DNA of 64,000 nucleotides from Niallia sp. XMNu-256. Its GTDB lineage: Bacteria; Bacillota; Bacilli; Bacillales; Cytobacillaceae. Positions 18,443 to 58,732 of this stretch are shown one piece after another (position 1 is the first letter of the stretch; the number at the start of each line of letters is the position of its first letter). The DNA lies in the NCBI RefSeq assembly GCF_036670015.1, contig NZ_CP137636.1, positions 3,884,501-3,948,500 of the forward strand, given 5' to 3'. The position numbers and the translations under genes were made by a program. Below the pieces are notes generated by a model. The model did no database searches, was not told where the DNA came from, and saw only the letters and a program-made list of their open reading frames with translations.

Positions 18443-18483
18443 CTCTTTAACTTCTTTATCTGAAACTTCTAAACCGGGCATCC

Positions 18484-18660
18484 AACCCACCCTCACATCA
18501 CGCTCCTGACAACAAGTGTCTAAGGACTATATGGAAATAGTCCCACAGCGCAATCGAGTGCCCCCAAAGATAACGGTCAGGAGACATCACCAAAATGCTA
18601 TCCTATTTTATGTATGTCTATTACAGCCGGGCAAAACGAATAGGTTAACATGTAGTGGGT
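18484..18660 (-). ncRNA. EAR-like (epsC) antitermination RNA
   Basis: The minus-strand transcript between the phosphatase gene and the epsC-like gene is highly structured. An outer helix pairs ACCCAC with GTGGGT (18655-18660 with 18485-18490). CTCCTGAC pairs with GTCAGGAG over 8 bp (18576-18583 with 18503-18510). Inside, GGACTAT/ATAGTCC makes a 7-bp hairpin (18537-18543 with 18524-18530). Segments such as GATGTCTCCTGACC and GCACTCGATTGCGC resemble, from memory, the EAR/epsC motif. In B. subtilis EAR lies between epsB and epsC and lets polymerase read through distal terminators of the long eps operon. Position and pairing agree; an Rfam search would settle it. Confidence 0.72.
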
Positions 18661-26834: not shown

Positions 26835-26944
26835 TTCTTATCCAGAGTGACGGAGGAAACAGGTCCTATGAAGTCCGGCAACCTACAAGTGTTCTCTTGA
26901 AAAGGTGCTAAATCCTGCAGGTATTCATTACCTGAAAGATAAGA
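26835..26944 (+). ncRNA. SAM-I (S-box) riboswitch aptamer
   Basis: The classical S-box core is complete. P1 strands are TTCTTATC and GATAAGA, with CAGAGTGACGGAGG, then ACAGGTCCTATGAAG, CCGGCAACC, AAGGTGCTAAATCCTGC and a P4-type GCAGGTATTCATTACCTG hairpin. The kink-turn and SAM-binding segments can be recognised by eye. It is followed at once by an intrinsic terminator. It lies between metY and the acetoacetate-CoA ligase operon and can only control the latter in cis. Confidence 0.96.
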
Positions 26945-26948
26945 TGAG

Positions 26949-38064: not shown

Positions 38065-38319
38065 ATGAATTTATACGAAAAGTTACCGACTGATACTTTG
38101 ATTGCCTTTTACCATGAAGTATGGAGAAATATTGAAAATGGATTTTTAACGAAAAATATGTACTATGAATTAGGTGTAATGATCTCAGCCGCTAGTCAAA
38201 GAGGGATTACCTTAGGCAAACCGTCTGATTTTGACTATGTTGTCGACCAACAAACGTTGGATGACTTTATTAAAAGTACGAGTAGATTTCATGAGGTAAA
38301 CAATTCCTTGACCATGTGA
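38065..38319 (+). CDS. Small hypothetical protein (84 aa)
   Basis: An 84-residue soluble protein with GAGGAGT ten bases before the ATG. It is helix-rich with aromatic-containing segments (LIAFYHEVWRNIENG, MYYELGVMI) and an acidic middle. I do not recognise a family. Codon use is like the neighbouring chromosome genes, and the good ribosome binding site makes it a real gene. A sporulation or regulatory role is only a guess. Confidence 0.7.
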   Translation: MNLYEKLPTDTLIAFYHEVWRNIENGFLTKNMYYELGVMISAASQRGITLGKPSDFDYVVDQQTLDDFIKSTSRFHEVNNSLTM

Positions 38320-39104: not shown

Positions 39105-39144
39105 CATAAAAATACAGGCAAGGGATTTGAACTTCCCCTGCCTG
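39105..39144 (-). terminator. Terminator of the TcyP-like gene
   Basis: ACAGGCAAGGGA and TCCCCTGCCTGT pair around a 7-nt loop; on the minus strand the stem is followed by ATTTTTATG. It lies about 90 bp past the symporter stop, after the two R repeats. Confidence 0.8.
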
Positions 39145-39157
39145 TTTTGAAATAATG

Positions 39158-39188
39158 ATGAAACGTGAGAACCGTCCCCATGTTTCAA
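39158..39188 (-). repeat. R-type repeat, copy R7 (minus orientation)
   Basis: Reads as the complement of the other copies (ATGAAACGTG, AGAACCGTCCC, CATGTTTCA). It is the second of two copies behind the minus-strand symporter gene. Confidence 0.92.
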
Positions 39189-39196
39189 ATTAGACG

Positions 39197-39227
39197 ATGA
39201 AACGCGAGAACCGTCCCCATGTTTCAC
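39197..39227 (-). repeat. R-type repeat, copy R8 (minus orientation)
   Basis: Complementary-strand copy starting seven bases after the symporter stop codon, so it is in sense orientation relative to that gene. R7 and R8 are 39 bp apart. Confidence 0.92.
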
Positions 39228-53915: not shown

Positions 53916-54412
53916 AACGTACCTCTCCTTAACGGTTAATTTTCTATTCACTATTTTTCATCATAACATGAATGGGGAGTTGAGTGAAACAGGGATACGA
54001 TTAAAAGCCAACACCTTAGGATATTGACTTTTCTTTGACGGGGGTTATTCTCTATTATTGTTCCAGTTCTAACGATCGGCTTATGATCTCTTCTATTGTT
54101 AGTAGTTTGCGGTTCCATCAGGGCATTTATTCTTTATCTAGTCTCCCTTTTATATATTATCCTAGCGTTAAATGCCAGTTAGATGTATACAACTTTAACG
54201 CCTCTTCTAAATAGAGAATAGTTTTATTTTTCTAGGTAAAAATGGATTGAGGCGAGCTCTTAAGAACGAATTAGATCTATAACCTTCGGAAACGGCTTTG
54301 AAATAAACTCTATTGAAGGGAATTTAATTTTTGACTATCGAAGACGGCCTTGAAAGCCTTTCTTTTGACCAAAACTGATTCTAAATTAGCCAGATATGTC
54401 CATGAAAATCAC
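53916..54412. other. Intergenic region upstream of galU, no gene seen
   Basis: About 500 bp with no convincing frame on either strand and no clear terminator. The TTACTCGTA repeat blocks begin at its end. Confidence 0.5.
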
Positions 54413-54515
54413 TTTACTCGTATTTATAGGCCTGTTACTCGTATTTTCTTGGACTTTACTCGTATTTTTCGAGGGGTTACTCGTATTTTTACCTCTGTTA
54501 CTCGTATTTTTCCTT
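54413..54515. repeat. 21-bp-period array, block 1 (five units of TTACTCGTA)
   Basis: The octamer TACTCGTA starts at 54415, 54436, 54457, 54478 and 54499, exactly 21 bp apart each time. Each is followed by TTT-rich sequence and about six variable bases. Because 21 is a multiple of three, all frames stay open and give seven-residue repeats (TRIF, LLVF) that are probably not real proteins. Confidence 0.95.
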
Positions 54516-54629
54516 TATTTACCTTTTTTCTGTTCAAAAACATCAAAAAATGAGTCGATCACCACGCTCGGCAATCAGCTTCCACCCTAGTCCTTCTCCC
54601 GACAAACAATATTTGTCCACGAAAATCCA

Positions 54630-54732
54630 TTTACTCGTATTTATAGGCCTGTTACTCGTAATTTCTTGGACTTTACTCGTATTTTTCGGCACGTTACTCG
54701 TATTTTTTCCCCTCTTACTCGTATATTTCCTT
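54630..54732. repeat. 21-bp-period array, block 2 (five units)
   Basis: TACTCGTA starts at 54632, 54653, 54674, 54695 and 54716, again exactly 21 bp apart. Block 2 is a tandem duplicate of block 1 with an offset of 217 bp. The intervening DNA also contains a degraded copy of the terminator that follows block 2. Confidence 0.95.
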
Positions 54733-54760
54733 TATTTACCTTTTTTCATCCAAAAACTCC

Positions 54761-54797
54761 AAAAAAAAGAGCCGATTACCACCCAGGTAATCGACTC
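54761..54797 (-). terminator. Terminator of the PbpC-like gene
   Basis: GAGCCGATTACC/GGTAATCGACTC, 12 bp with one mismatch, followed by eight T residues on the minus strand. The 21-bp arrays lie directly beyond it. Confidence 0.88.
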
Positions 54798-54812
54798 TTC
54801 CCCCTCAATCTT

Positions 54813-56789
54813 CTATTCCTCAAACACATTCCTTACTTTCTTAACGACATACTCGGAGCCGTGTTTGTCTTGGACGCCTTCGACCATCATGGCGATGACT
54901 AGATCTGGGTTATAGGCAACAAACCAGCCGATTTCATGGCCGCGTTCGCCTTGTTTGGCTTTAAATTCGGCCGTTCCGGTTTTGCCGGCAAGGTTCATGC
55001 CCTTAACATTGGCGCTAGATCCCGTGCCTTCCGGATTTTGAACGACATTTGCCAAATAACCAGAAATCTGATCCGCCTGTTCGGCACTGATGACATTCTC
55101 TTTCCAGGCAACTCCGTCTTCGTCATCCAGTAGCAGGGTCGGCTTAATAAGGTTTCCCGCATTGATAAATGGCGTATAAGTTGCCGCTAGATGGGCGATA
55201 TTCATTTCCACCTCACCTTGACCGTACCCGGAATCCGCCAACTTCACTTCGCTGTCCATCGCGCCCGTTACCGATTTCTCAAGCGGATAGGTAAATGGGA
55301 TCTCTTCTTCAAAGCCGAAATTTTTCAAGCCGTTCACGAACCGAGCCTTGCCCAAATCAAGTGCCGTTTGCGCAAAATATATATTATCTGAATAAAGCAT
55401 GGCTTTTTCCAAATCAACGTCAGACGCCTCTTTGACTCTTGTGACAAAATAATTGCCCCATGATTGATCCTTTTGCCACTGGAGGCCGCTGACGTTCATC
55501 GTTTTACTCGGATCAAGTGTCCCTTCTTTTAAACCGATAGCCGCAGTTAATGGCTTAATGACCGAGCCTGGAGCATAGTTGGCTGCGAAACGGTTCAATA
55601 ATGGCTGAAGCGGATCGTCGTCCAAGGCCTTCCATTGTTCAGCCGTTGCTCCTAATGTTAAAAGATTTGGGTCAAAACTCGGTGTACTTACTAATCCTAG
55701 TGTTTCCCCTGTTTTCGGATGAATGACAGCTGCTGTTCCCGGGTCATTTGCCAACTGATCGTATACTTTTGTTTGCATCGACGCATCAATCGTCAGCCCA
55801 ACATTTTCGCCATCTTTGACTTCTTTTTGGGCGAGTACTTCCTGGGTTCCATCGCTCTTATTAATTGTAATTTTGACTCCATTTTGGCCTTTTAATTTTT
55901 CATCAAATAATTGCTCAATGCCCCTTTTTCCGATGGAATCATTGCTGTTATAGCCTTTGCCCTTCAATTTCTTGAGTTCTTCAGCGGTAATTTTGCCAAT
56001 ATAACCGGTTAAATGGGCTGCTGCTTCTTTTAACGGATACACACGCGCCTCGACTTTTTTTGACTGAACGCCAGGCAGAGTCGTCACCTCTGCGACAAGA
56101 TCGCCTTCCTCGAGGGAAACCCGTTTGATCGGCACGAAATATTCCGGCTTGACCCATGAGGCATTTAACTGCTCATTAATTTTTTCAACCGTTACTCCTA
56201 AAAGCGACGCCATTTCGGCAATCGTTGCTTCCTTTTCTTCCCCAAGACTTCCTGGTACAATTCCAATTTCATAAACTTCCCCATTCATCGCAAGAGGTTG
56301 ACCGTTTCGGTCCTGAATTTCTCCACGTTTGGCAGGAGTTGAGCTCAGGCCAACCTTGTCACCCTCGTCCAACTGCGGGAATATGTAAGTCGTGTTCCAA
56401 TCAATGTACCAATTTTCCTCATCATTCTTCGTTTCCTTCTTTAATGAGGCCGTATGTTCAAACTCAATCTTCCCTGCAACACTTTCCATAGAAGCAGAGA
56501 ATGGATATTGCACAGACTCCTCTTTCACTTCTTCGTTCTCTGGCTTTTCAAATGCTACCTGCAAATCTCGTATTTCTAGATCGCTGTAAATCTTTTCATA
56601 GCGGTTCACAAACTCTTCCTTTGACAACGAGTCTTGTGCAGCAGCTGTTAGAAGTTCATACATTTGCGCAAATTTCTGATTATTCCAGAGCTCAACATAC
56701 TCGGATAAACGATCACTCGGCTGTGGTTCCTGATTACACCCTGTGACAATTGCTAACATCAAGATCATCATCATCGCAAACTTTTTCAT
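54813..56789 (-). CDS. pbpC: Class B penicillin-binding protein, PBP3/PbpC-like
   Basis: A 658-residue lipoprotein-type PBP, near the length of B. subtilis PbpC (PBP3). It has a signal peptide with the lipobox IVTGC (C18), an NTF2-like MecA_N domain at about 25-140, a dimerisation domain at about 150-310, and a transpeptidase domain with S409-x-x-K412 (GSVIKP), SDN at 467-469 and KTGT near 604-607. It cross-links peptidoglycan. The MecA_N domain is shared with low-affinity PBPs such as MecA, so low beta-lactam affinity is possible but not shown. Confidence 0.93.
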   Translation of the reverse strand: MKKFAMMMILMLAIVTGCNQEPQPSDRLSEYVELWNNQKFAQMYELLTAAAQDSLSKEEFVNRYEKIYSDLEIRDLQVAFEKPENEEVKEESVQYPFSASMESVAGKIEFEHTASLKKETKNDEENWYIDWNTTYIFPQLDEGDKVGLSSTPAKRGEIQDRNGQPLAMNGEVYEIGIVPGSLGEEKEATIAEMASLLGVTVEKINEQLNASWVKPEYFVPIKRVSLEEGDLVAEVTTLPGVQSKKVEARVYPLKEAAAHLTGYIGKITAEELKKLKGKGYNSNDSIGKRGIEQLFDEKLKGQNGVKITINKSDGTQEVLAQKEVKDGENVGLTIDASMQTKVYDQLANDPGTAAVIHPKTGETLGLVSTPSFDPNLLTLGATAEQWKALDDDPLQPLLNRFAANYAPGSVIKPLTAAIGLKEGTLDPSKTMNVSGLQWQKDQSWGNYFVTRVKEASDVDLEKAMLYSDNIYFAQTALDLGKARFVNGLKNFGFEEEIPFTYPLEKSVTGAMDSEVKLADSGYGQGEVEMNIAHLAATYTPFINAGNLIKPTLLLDDEDGVAWKENVISAEQADQISGYLANVVQNPEGTGSSANVKGMNLAGKTGTAEFKAKQGERGHEIGWFVAYNPDLVIAMMVEGVQDKHGSEYVVKKVRNVFEE

Positions 56790-58494: not shown

Positions 58495-58502
58495 TAAAAA
58501 GG

Positions 58503-58546
58503 CACCACCTAAACGAGAGAGAACTCGTTTAGGTGGTGTTTTTTTT
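58503..58546 (+). terminator. Terminator of the LysM-NlpC/P60 gene
   Basis: CACCACCTAAACGAG/CTCGTTTAGGTGGTG, a perfect 15-bp stem with a 6-nt loop, followed by eight T residues. Confidence 0.95.
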
Positions 58547-58573
58547 ATTTTGAATTGGTGGAAAATGGTAATA

Positions 58574-58623
58574 TACGAGTAAAGGGCCGATTTTTACGAG
58601 TAACCATCTAAAAAATACGAGTA
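58574..58623. repeat. 21-bp-period array, block 3 (three units, opposite orientation)
   Basis: TACGAGTA, the reverse complement of the block 1/2 octamer, starts at 58574, 58595 and 58616, again exactly 21 bp apart. It lies 28 bp beyond the LysM-NlpC/P60 terminator. Relative to its upstream gene it has the same orientation as blocks 1 and 2 have relative to the PBP gene. Confidence 0.93.
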
Positions 58624-58732
58624 AACTCTCGAAATGACGGATCCCCCCTCTATTTCTACGGGTTAACCTAATTTAAAGAGAAAAAAAACCCAGTTTCCTT
58701 ATCTTTTAAAAAAATAGAACTTCCAAAAAATT

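Follow-up and report, generated by a model that had tools for sequence, protein, structure and literature searches.

Arrays of 21-bp direct repeats downstream of genes in Niallia sp. XMNu-256, compared with known intergenic elements

REP sequences and BIMEs of E. coli are intergenic, lie mostly downstream of genes and occur as several copies together (PMC6379681, PMC3733652), and the gyrase motif is described as spanning 130 bp with a phased 10-bp variation in G/C content, gyrase itself being enriched downstream of highly transcribed operons (PMC6379681). In B. subtilis, RacA is described as an oligomerising DNA-binding protein, with short ram sites that are dense near the replication origin (PMC6593407), and E. 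coli intergenic DNA is described as carrying a genome-wide dinucleotide signal with a period near one helical turn (PMC516772). In the open-access papers searched we found none on arrays of the kind described here.

The arrays described here were found in a window, by which we mean the whole stretch of 64,000 nucleotides analysed, of the genome of Niallia sp. XMNu-256 (the host genome). Like BIMEs as described, they are intergenic, lie mostly 3' of genes (a same-sense hairpin stands upstream of six of the ten host-genome arrays) and hold several copies together. REPs are palindromes, however, whereas the units here repeat directly, at steps of 20-21 bp, and share a conserved core; inside the window arrays inverted repeats of at least 12 bp are absent, and the folding z-scores of 12 arrays range from -1.60 to +1.17. 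The domain Y1_Tnp (RAYT) occurs in seven of nine genomes, including congeners that have no arrays, and is absent from the array-rich genomes G520 and G461. As to the helically phased G/C-A/T modulation over about 130 bp of strong gyrase sites, the units show a 10.5-bp modulation and the host-genome arrays are 63-126 bp long. The likeness to ram sites, also short and near the origin, is one of position, since seven of the nine host-genome loci lie 160-268 kb before a dnaA-like gene if contig C1 is circular; two loci are far away, however, and the passages of PMC6593407 on RacA and ram sites mention no 21-bp arrays. The E. coli signal shares with the arrays a near-one-turn period in non-coding DNA, but the arrays are discrete and have a defined core. 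Our best reading, by analogy, is that the arrays may work like BIMEs or gyrase sites without belonging to either, the nearest working analogue being the gyrase motif together with gyrase-binding BIMEs as described in PMC6379681.

Arrays, hairpins and genes in the window

In the window TTACTCGTA forms two runs, each of five copies at 21-bp steps (Table 1). The octamer TACTCGTA is found on the + strand at 54415, 54436, 54457, 54478 and 54499 (block 1) and at 54632, 54653, 54674, 54695 and 54716 (block 2), and it occurs 14 times in the window, whereas 100 dinucleotide-preserving shuffles gave 0.87 on average and never more than 5. A search for TACTCGTA-N13-TACTCGTA that allowed up to two mismatches returned 10 matches, all exact, against 0.02 expected, which confirms the octamer positions and the exact 21-bp step reported in an earlier note on this DNA. 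The same note had called the second block a tandem duplicate of the first at 217 bp, and this too is borne out: the blocks are direct repeats at that spacing over 172 nt, identical at 145 of 172 positions. Between arrays A and B, the last ten positions of the units agree at 49 of 50 sites and the other positions at 47 of 55. The octamers of array C, at 58574, 58595 and 58616, are on the strand opposite to the one first read and lie 3' of the LysM/NlpC gene. Tandem Repeats Finder detected A and B and missed C. A lone TACTCGTA stands at 38277, outside any array. Elsewhere in the window, 39143-39226 holds roughly two tandem copies of a 39-bp sequence with GAACCGTCCCC; a similar GGGACGGTTCT stretch lies beside the array at L186.

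Table 1. Positions of arrays, repeat blocks, hairpins and adjoining genes in the window
Feature	Position	Strand	Remarks
Array A	54631..54735	-	Five 21-bp units, sense nnnnnnGAAAAATACGAGTAA; nearest the PBP gene
Array B	54414..54518	-	Five 21-bp units; tandem copy of array A at 217 bp
Array C	58562..58624	+	Three 21-bp units; absent from the earlier note
172-nt repeat block 1	54394..54565	none	Array B and flank
172-nt repeat block 2	54611..54782	none	Array A and flank
Intrinsic-terminator-like hairpin with T run	54761..54805	-	Between PBP stop and array A; 2 found in region, shuffle mean 0.7
Second, weaker terminator-like hairpin	54556..54577	-	Between arrays A and B
Intrinsic-terminator-like hairpin	58498..58543	+, scores on - too	Between LysM/NlpC stop and array C; 3 found, shuffle mean 0.3
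MecA_N/PBP_dimer/Transpeptidase protein, 658 aa	54813..56789	-	Gene upstream of arrays A and B; Pfam
LysM repeats and NlpC/P60 protein, 436 aa	57184..58494	+	Gene upstream of array C

Arrays A, B and C each lie directly 3' of a terminator-like hairpin on their own strand, and the module duplicated at 217 bp is therefore array plus terminator-like hairpin. The three hairpins were recovered by a tool scan as well as by the count that follows. The placement of the arrays behind a PBP gene, as first proposed, is correct, the gene at 54813-56789 (-) carrying the Pfam domains MecA_N, PBP_dimer and Transpeptidase. We counted hairpins with a T run within 100 bp of an array in the host genome, the G212 tract, other loci of genus g24 and G011, respectively (G numbers denote genomes, g numbers genera). 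Upstream in the sense of the array, hairpins were present at 6/10, 11/16, 19/44 and 0/5 arrays; downstream in sense at 1/10, 1/16, 5/44 and 1/5; upstream on the other strand at 2/10, 1/16, 2/44 and 0/5; downstream on the other strand at 0/10, 0/16, 8/44 and 1/5; and in shuffled upstream stretches at 1/50, 0/80, 3/220 and 0/25. A second script (120 bp, different stem rules) found them upstream in sense at 4/10, 12/16 and 15/44 arrays and downstream at 0, 1 and 9 in the host genome, G212 and the other g24 loci.

Array orientation matches that of the upstream gene at six of the nine host-genome loci; L181, L182 and L185 have no same-sense gene upstream. Nine of the ten period-20/21 loci in the host tract, seven of which belong to the window's family, lie outside predicted ORFs, and repeat loci inside predicted ORFs number 1/10 in the host genome, 2/28 in G212 and 1/6 in G520. 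By look, the types of gap that host arrays resemble the background. A common function of the neighbouring genes was considered and rejected, the neighbours being PBP, LysM/NlpC, M20 peptidase, class-III aminotransferase, VanZ-like, ATP synthase epsilon, PrmC-like, PLD-like and ThiS genes.

Unit anatomy, possible helical phasing and the level at which the arrays may act

Read in the sense of the PBP gene, the reverse of the strand on which A and B were first read, the unit is nnnnnnGAAAAATACGAGTAA. Host-genome arrays have three to six units, with a core of about nine bases per two helical turns and a second A/T-rich tract one helical turn from the core. Across 45 host-genome units the information content is 1.6-2.0 bits at the last nine positions against 0-0.3 bits at the first six, a contrast that is partly there by construction, the units having been picked with up to two mismatches to TTACTCGY. 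A/T content inside the units has a strong second harmonic, at 10.5 bp: among 26 arrays hand-picked for repeating at 21 bp, all 26 lie above the column-permutation mean and 15 do so at p<0.05. The mean 10.5-bp amplitude is 3.03 in these 26 arrays and 1.02 in 837 other intergenic stretches. Any genuine repeat would come out ahead in this comparison, the column permutation being the fair test.

A preference for the 21-bp spacing had been named beforehand as the test of the earlier note, and it was found: in the host genome there are 23 exact TACTCGTA pairs at 21 bp and none for the reversed pattern, and in two tracts the period peaks at 20-21 and 41-42. The proposal that all sites face the same side of the DNA fares less evenly, agreeing with the 10.5-bp A/T modulation but weakened by the 19- and 22-bp steps of G520, in which 163 of 199 spacings are 21 bp, 20 are 19 bp and eight are 22 bp. 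Since CGAGTAA in G520 also shows no three-turn gaps (31-32 bp), part of the period is accounted for by simple tandem duplication of a unit. Steps of 20 bp are common in genus g24 (23 of 70 spacings in G212). By eye, units of G520 often contain a short dyad, ACTCACGAGT.

A step of 21 bp is also open to translation, and heptad ORFs (TRIF/LLVF) had been seen in the window and taken as spurious, a judgement that holds. In the host genome one antisense frame has no stops in 35 units and one sense frame has a single stop, and in G011 one sense frame is open through 17 units, as a translated heptad-repeat peptide would have it; however, genus g24 has stops in every frame (at least 21 of 190 units), as does G520 (at least nine of 165), 20-bp steps shift the frame, and the open frame is not the same between groups, so that no frame is stop-free in all four. 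Protein coding was rejected on these stop codons and 20-bp steps, and the peptide is hardly credible. In such genomes ORF callers may create spurious heptad-repeat proteins from the arrays.

The arrays could instead act as RNA, if read-through or a 3' untranslated transcript presented repeated ACGAGUAA as a sponge that a small RNA or a protein binds. The directional core would suit such an element, as would the usual place of the array, 3' of a gene and on the sense strand, but many arrays lie 3' of terminators and the 12 arrays folded as above show no significant structure (nine z-scores are negative), so that folding gives no support to the RNA with repeated hexamers that the earlier note had listed. 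Pairing between neighbouring units was not significant in the host genome (p 0.34 across arrays, 0.81 within) and in G212 (0.55 and 0.88) and mixed in G520 (p 0.032 within arrays, 1.0 across). On this evidence an RNA element seems quite improbable. Hairpins between neighbouring units, suggested by CCCC/GGGG pairs seen by eye in the host genome, were rejected as unsupported by shuffles. At Rfam gathering thresholds the window yielded only an epsC RNA at 18475-18592 (-) and a SAM riboswitch at 26835-26945 (+), both away from the arrays. CRISPR repeats are about 23-47 bp long, with spacers of similar length; the whole unit here is 21 bp, with a core of about nine, and a CRISPR array was rejected.

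The reading that we tentatively prefer is that the arrays are non-coding DNA elements, each a helically phased multi-site platform, behind terminators, for a bending or oligomerising protein. A sequence-specific protein would bind the cores cooperatively on one DNA face; once bound, it would bend or wrap a stretch of 60-130 bp, and the fixed structure behind the end of the transcription unit could then act as an insulator, a supercoil sink or a nucleoid anchor. This platform agrees with the position of arrays behind terminators, the helical modulation and the conservation of the cores; the absence of upstream terminators from all five G011 arrays and of a same-sense upstream gene from three of nine host-genome loci argues against it. 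The earlier note had weighed an array bound by protein, a site that organises the chromosome and an RNA; its interpretation is borne out in part, the spacing preference being present and binding itself being what we infer. If the platform is real, bacteria would have an element behind terminators that carries its own ruler and that synthetic arrays, with core and spacing chosen at will, could put to the test.

Distribution, conservation and turnover

The host genome has ten arrays at nine loci, seven of them within 108 kb, a clustering never seen in 200,000 random placements of nine loci. We read the first gene of contig C1 as dnaA from its protein start and P-loop motif. At C1:3.943-4.047 Mb, six successive loci lie 18-23 kb apart (five gaps), with p 5.5e-5 for a regularity chosen post hoc and 0.016 with the preceding 4.2-kb gap. 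No 20-22-bp cluster was found in 360 kb sampled elsewhere in the host genome. A leading-strand orientation is not claimed: three of the nine host-genome loci run opposite, if the terminus lies midway. The 32 matches in G212 are + at 0.24 to 1.30 Mb and - at 4.25 to 4.92 Mb.

The exact pair occurs in none of 100 other relatives searched, four congeners included. With two mismatches 18 of 21 genomes match, with a clear excess over the reversed control only in the host genome and G011, and the four congeners match less often than that control. Triplets of TTACTCRT (up to two mismatches) occur in 16 of 193 family genomes including the host, in four of 25 genera; the reversed control matches in nine of 193 genomes, one to three times each, which makes genomes with one or two matches uncertain, and the G107 match belongs to a different core, TTATCCTGCG. 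Exact GAGTAA triplets occur in 21 of 397 genomes of the order including the host, in 15 of 136 genera (reversed control 6/397); some are plain identical minisatellites (G318), and the highest counts are in five genomes of genus g90, with 266 overlapping matches in G520. The earlier note's pointer to related Bacillaceae is only partly right: matches are numerous in some genomes of other genera (more than 200 GAGTAA triplet matches each in G520 and G461), but the four congeners lack the exact pair. In 200 kb from each of two congeners there was one 21-bp cluster, asparagine-rich and apparently coding, and none at 20 or 22. The gap between the PBP gene and what we take to be GalU was readable in three of the four congeners and holds no array there; in two of them (L233, L235) it contains a different repeat, TTAGTTGG.. 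with complementary CCAACTAACC.. stretches. As congeners do without arrays, any function is dispensable.

One G212 array stretch had no match in 72,556 plasmid records (BLAST, low-complexity filter on). Among viral contigs the exact TACTCGTA pair occurs in 38 stretches, 36 of them with a single match, and GACGAGTAA-N12-GACGAGTAA matches one. Planctomycete matches were set aside as a separate dispersed repeat, GTACTCGTACTCAGCG..., with GTACTCGTACTCAGCGNAGCGGTACTCGTACTC in many contigs (L024-L141, among the matches listed).

Conservation was compared in seven array pairs from G212 and G214, two related species, with the neighbouring genes used to match the loci. The 9-bp core is identical at 674 of 691 positions (97.5%), the 12-bp spacer at 794 of 924 (85.9%) and the flanks at 620 of 711 (87.2%). 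Each pair entered the count twice, once per direction, and cores were assigned on a single sequence with two mismatches allowed, so that the Fisher p of 1e-17 is too small; the contrast between core and spacer stands nonetheless. Most G212 arrays are copies of one element, and the G212 counts are therefore not independent: seven loci have the array within a dispersed element of about 250 bp with its own terminator-like hairpin, an eighth has part of that element, and three further loci have the array alone in common.

A serious rival to the platform, not exclusive of it, is that the arrays are a selfish or neutral dispersed intergenic repeat, minisatellite-like and non-autonomous, whose units multiply by slippage or unequal exchange, whose terminator-plus-array modules are copied in tandem and spread locally, and which persists in gaps behind terminators as the least harmful places. 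As in minisatellites or VNTRs, the 21-bp units lie head to tail, their number varies (six at L193 and five at the matching L201) and larger modules are duplicated in tandem, at 217 bp in the window and about 245 bp in G212. One array-bearing stretch of G212, about 298 bp long, is absent from the matching gap of G214, by gain or loss, between flanks about 93% identical; G520 has long homogeneous arrays, seven of nine host-genome loci crowd into 108 kb, and the distribution is patchy (among other genomes, exact pairs in 0/100, TTACTCRT triplets in 15/192 of the family and GAGTAA triplets in 20/396 of the order). Against such a repeat, cores have diverged much less than spacers, and spacers about as much as flanks; the first six bases of host units have almost nothing in common, whereas the last nine hardly vary; one unit length recurs with many cores; and no mobilising enzyme is tied to the arrays, the two of nine genomes without Y1_Tnp being the array-rich G520 and G461. 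We regard this explanation as possible, if on the doubtful side. Were it true, there would be a class of intergenic repeat that is kept close to two helical turns irrespective of the core, and this needs a mechanism of its own.

Two-turn arrays with other cores

A core-free scan for 6-mers repeated three times at period p (p = 10 to 49) was run on tracts of two genomes. In 462 kb of the host genome it gave 11 clusters at 21, one at 20, nine at 42 and at most two at any other period; in 400 kb of G212 it gave 32 at 21, 12 at 20, 11 at 41, 13 at 42 and at most three elsewhere. A few of these clusters sit in predicted genes and look like coding repeats. Period 18 appears in other tracts, with five clusters in 360 kb of the host genome and seven in G520, beside eight at 21. 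In the two tracts and in relatives more than ten different cores share the 20-21-bp period, among them GACGAGTAA, GCACAAAAC, TGTAGATAAA, AGCCAATCA, ATTCCGCC, TATCRTCC, GCGAATTT-TATCA, TACTTTCC, TTCTATTGGCG, TTATCCTGCG and TTGCACCA. The window's family (ACGAGTAA) is thus one of several with a common 20-21-bp scaffold and different cores. A second host family, with core TTGCACCA, forms two tandem blocks beside an MreB/Mbl-like gene (L247:12615-12850, C1 ~3.961 Mb). GCACAAA triplets were found in two of five genomes traced and ATTCCGC triplets in four of five, the host genome contributing a single candidate match with one mismatch.

The families may form a superfamily of two-turn arrays, in which an A/T tract, a core and variable bases make up the scaffold, cores of 7-9 bp are interchangeable and several families share a genome. 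For each core there would be a dedicated reader from one family of DNA-binding proteins that act cooperatively, and the ends of transcription units would be marked, and physically arranged, according to core type, as a nucleoid or insulation code, of which we know no description; we consider this extension of the platform unlikely. Territories by core family were sought in G212, with the positions of three families taken from the scans above, and 14 same-family neighbours were found against 11.7 expected (p 0.22).

Other repeats came to light in the same searches. The reversed control ATGCTCAT-N13-ATGCTCAT has 14 matches in G086, and the reversed control of the G212 search has 11 in G212; both may represent additional cores of the two-turn class. 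In G212, a long array that repeats about every 52 bp (L267:8318-9156) lies near one 21-bp array, and a dispersed inverted repeat, GGGGACAGTCCCC...GGGGACTGTCCCC, is found at L281:5474-5521 and at many places of the G212 tract.
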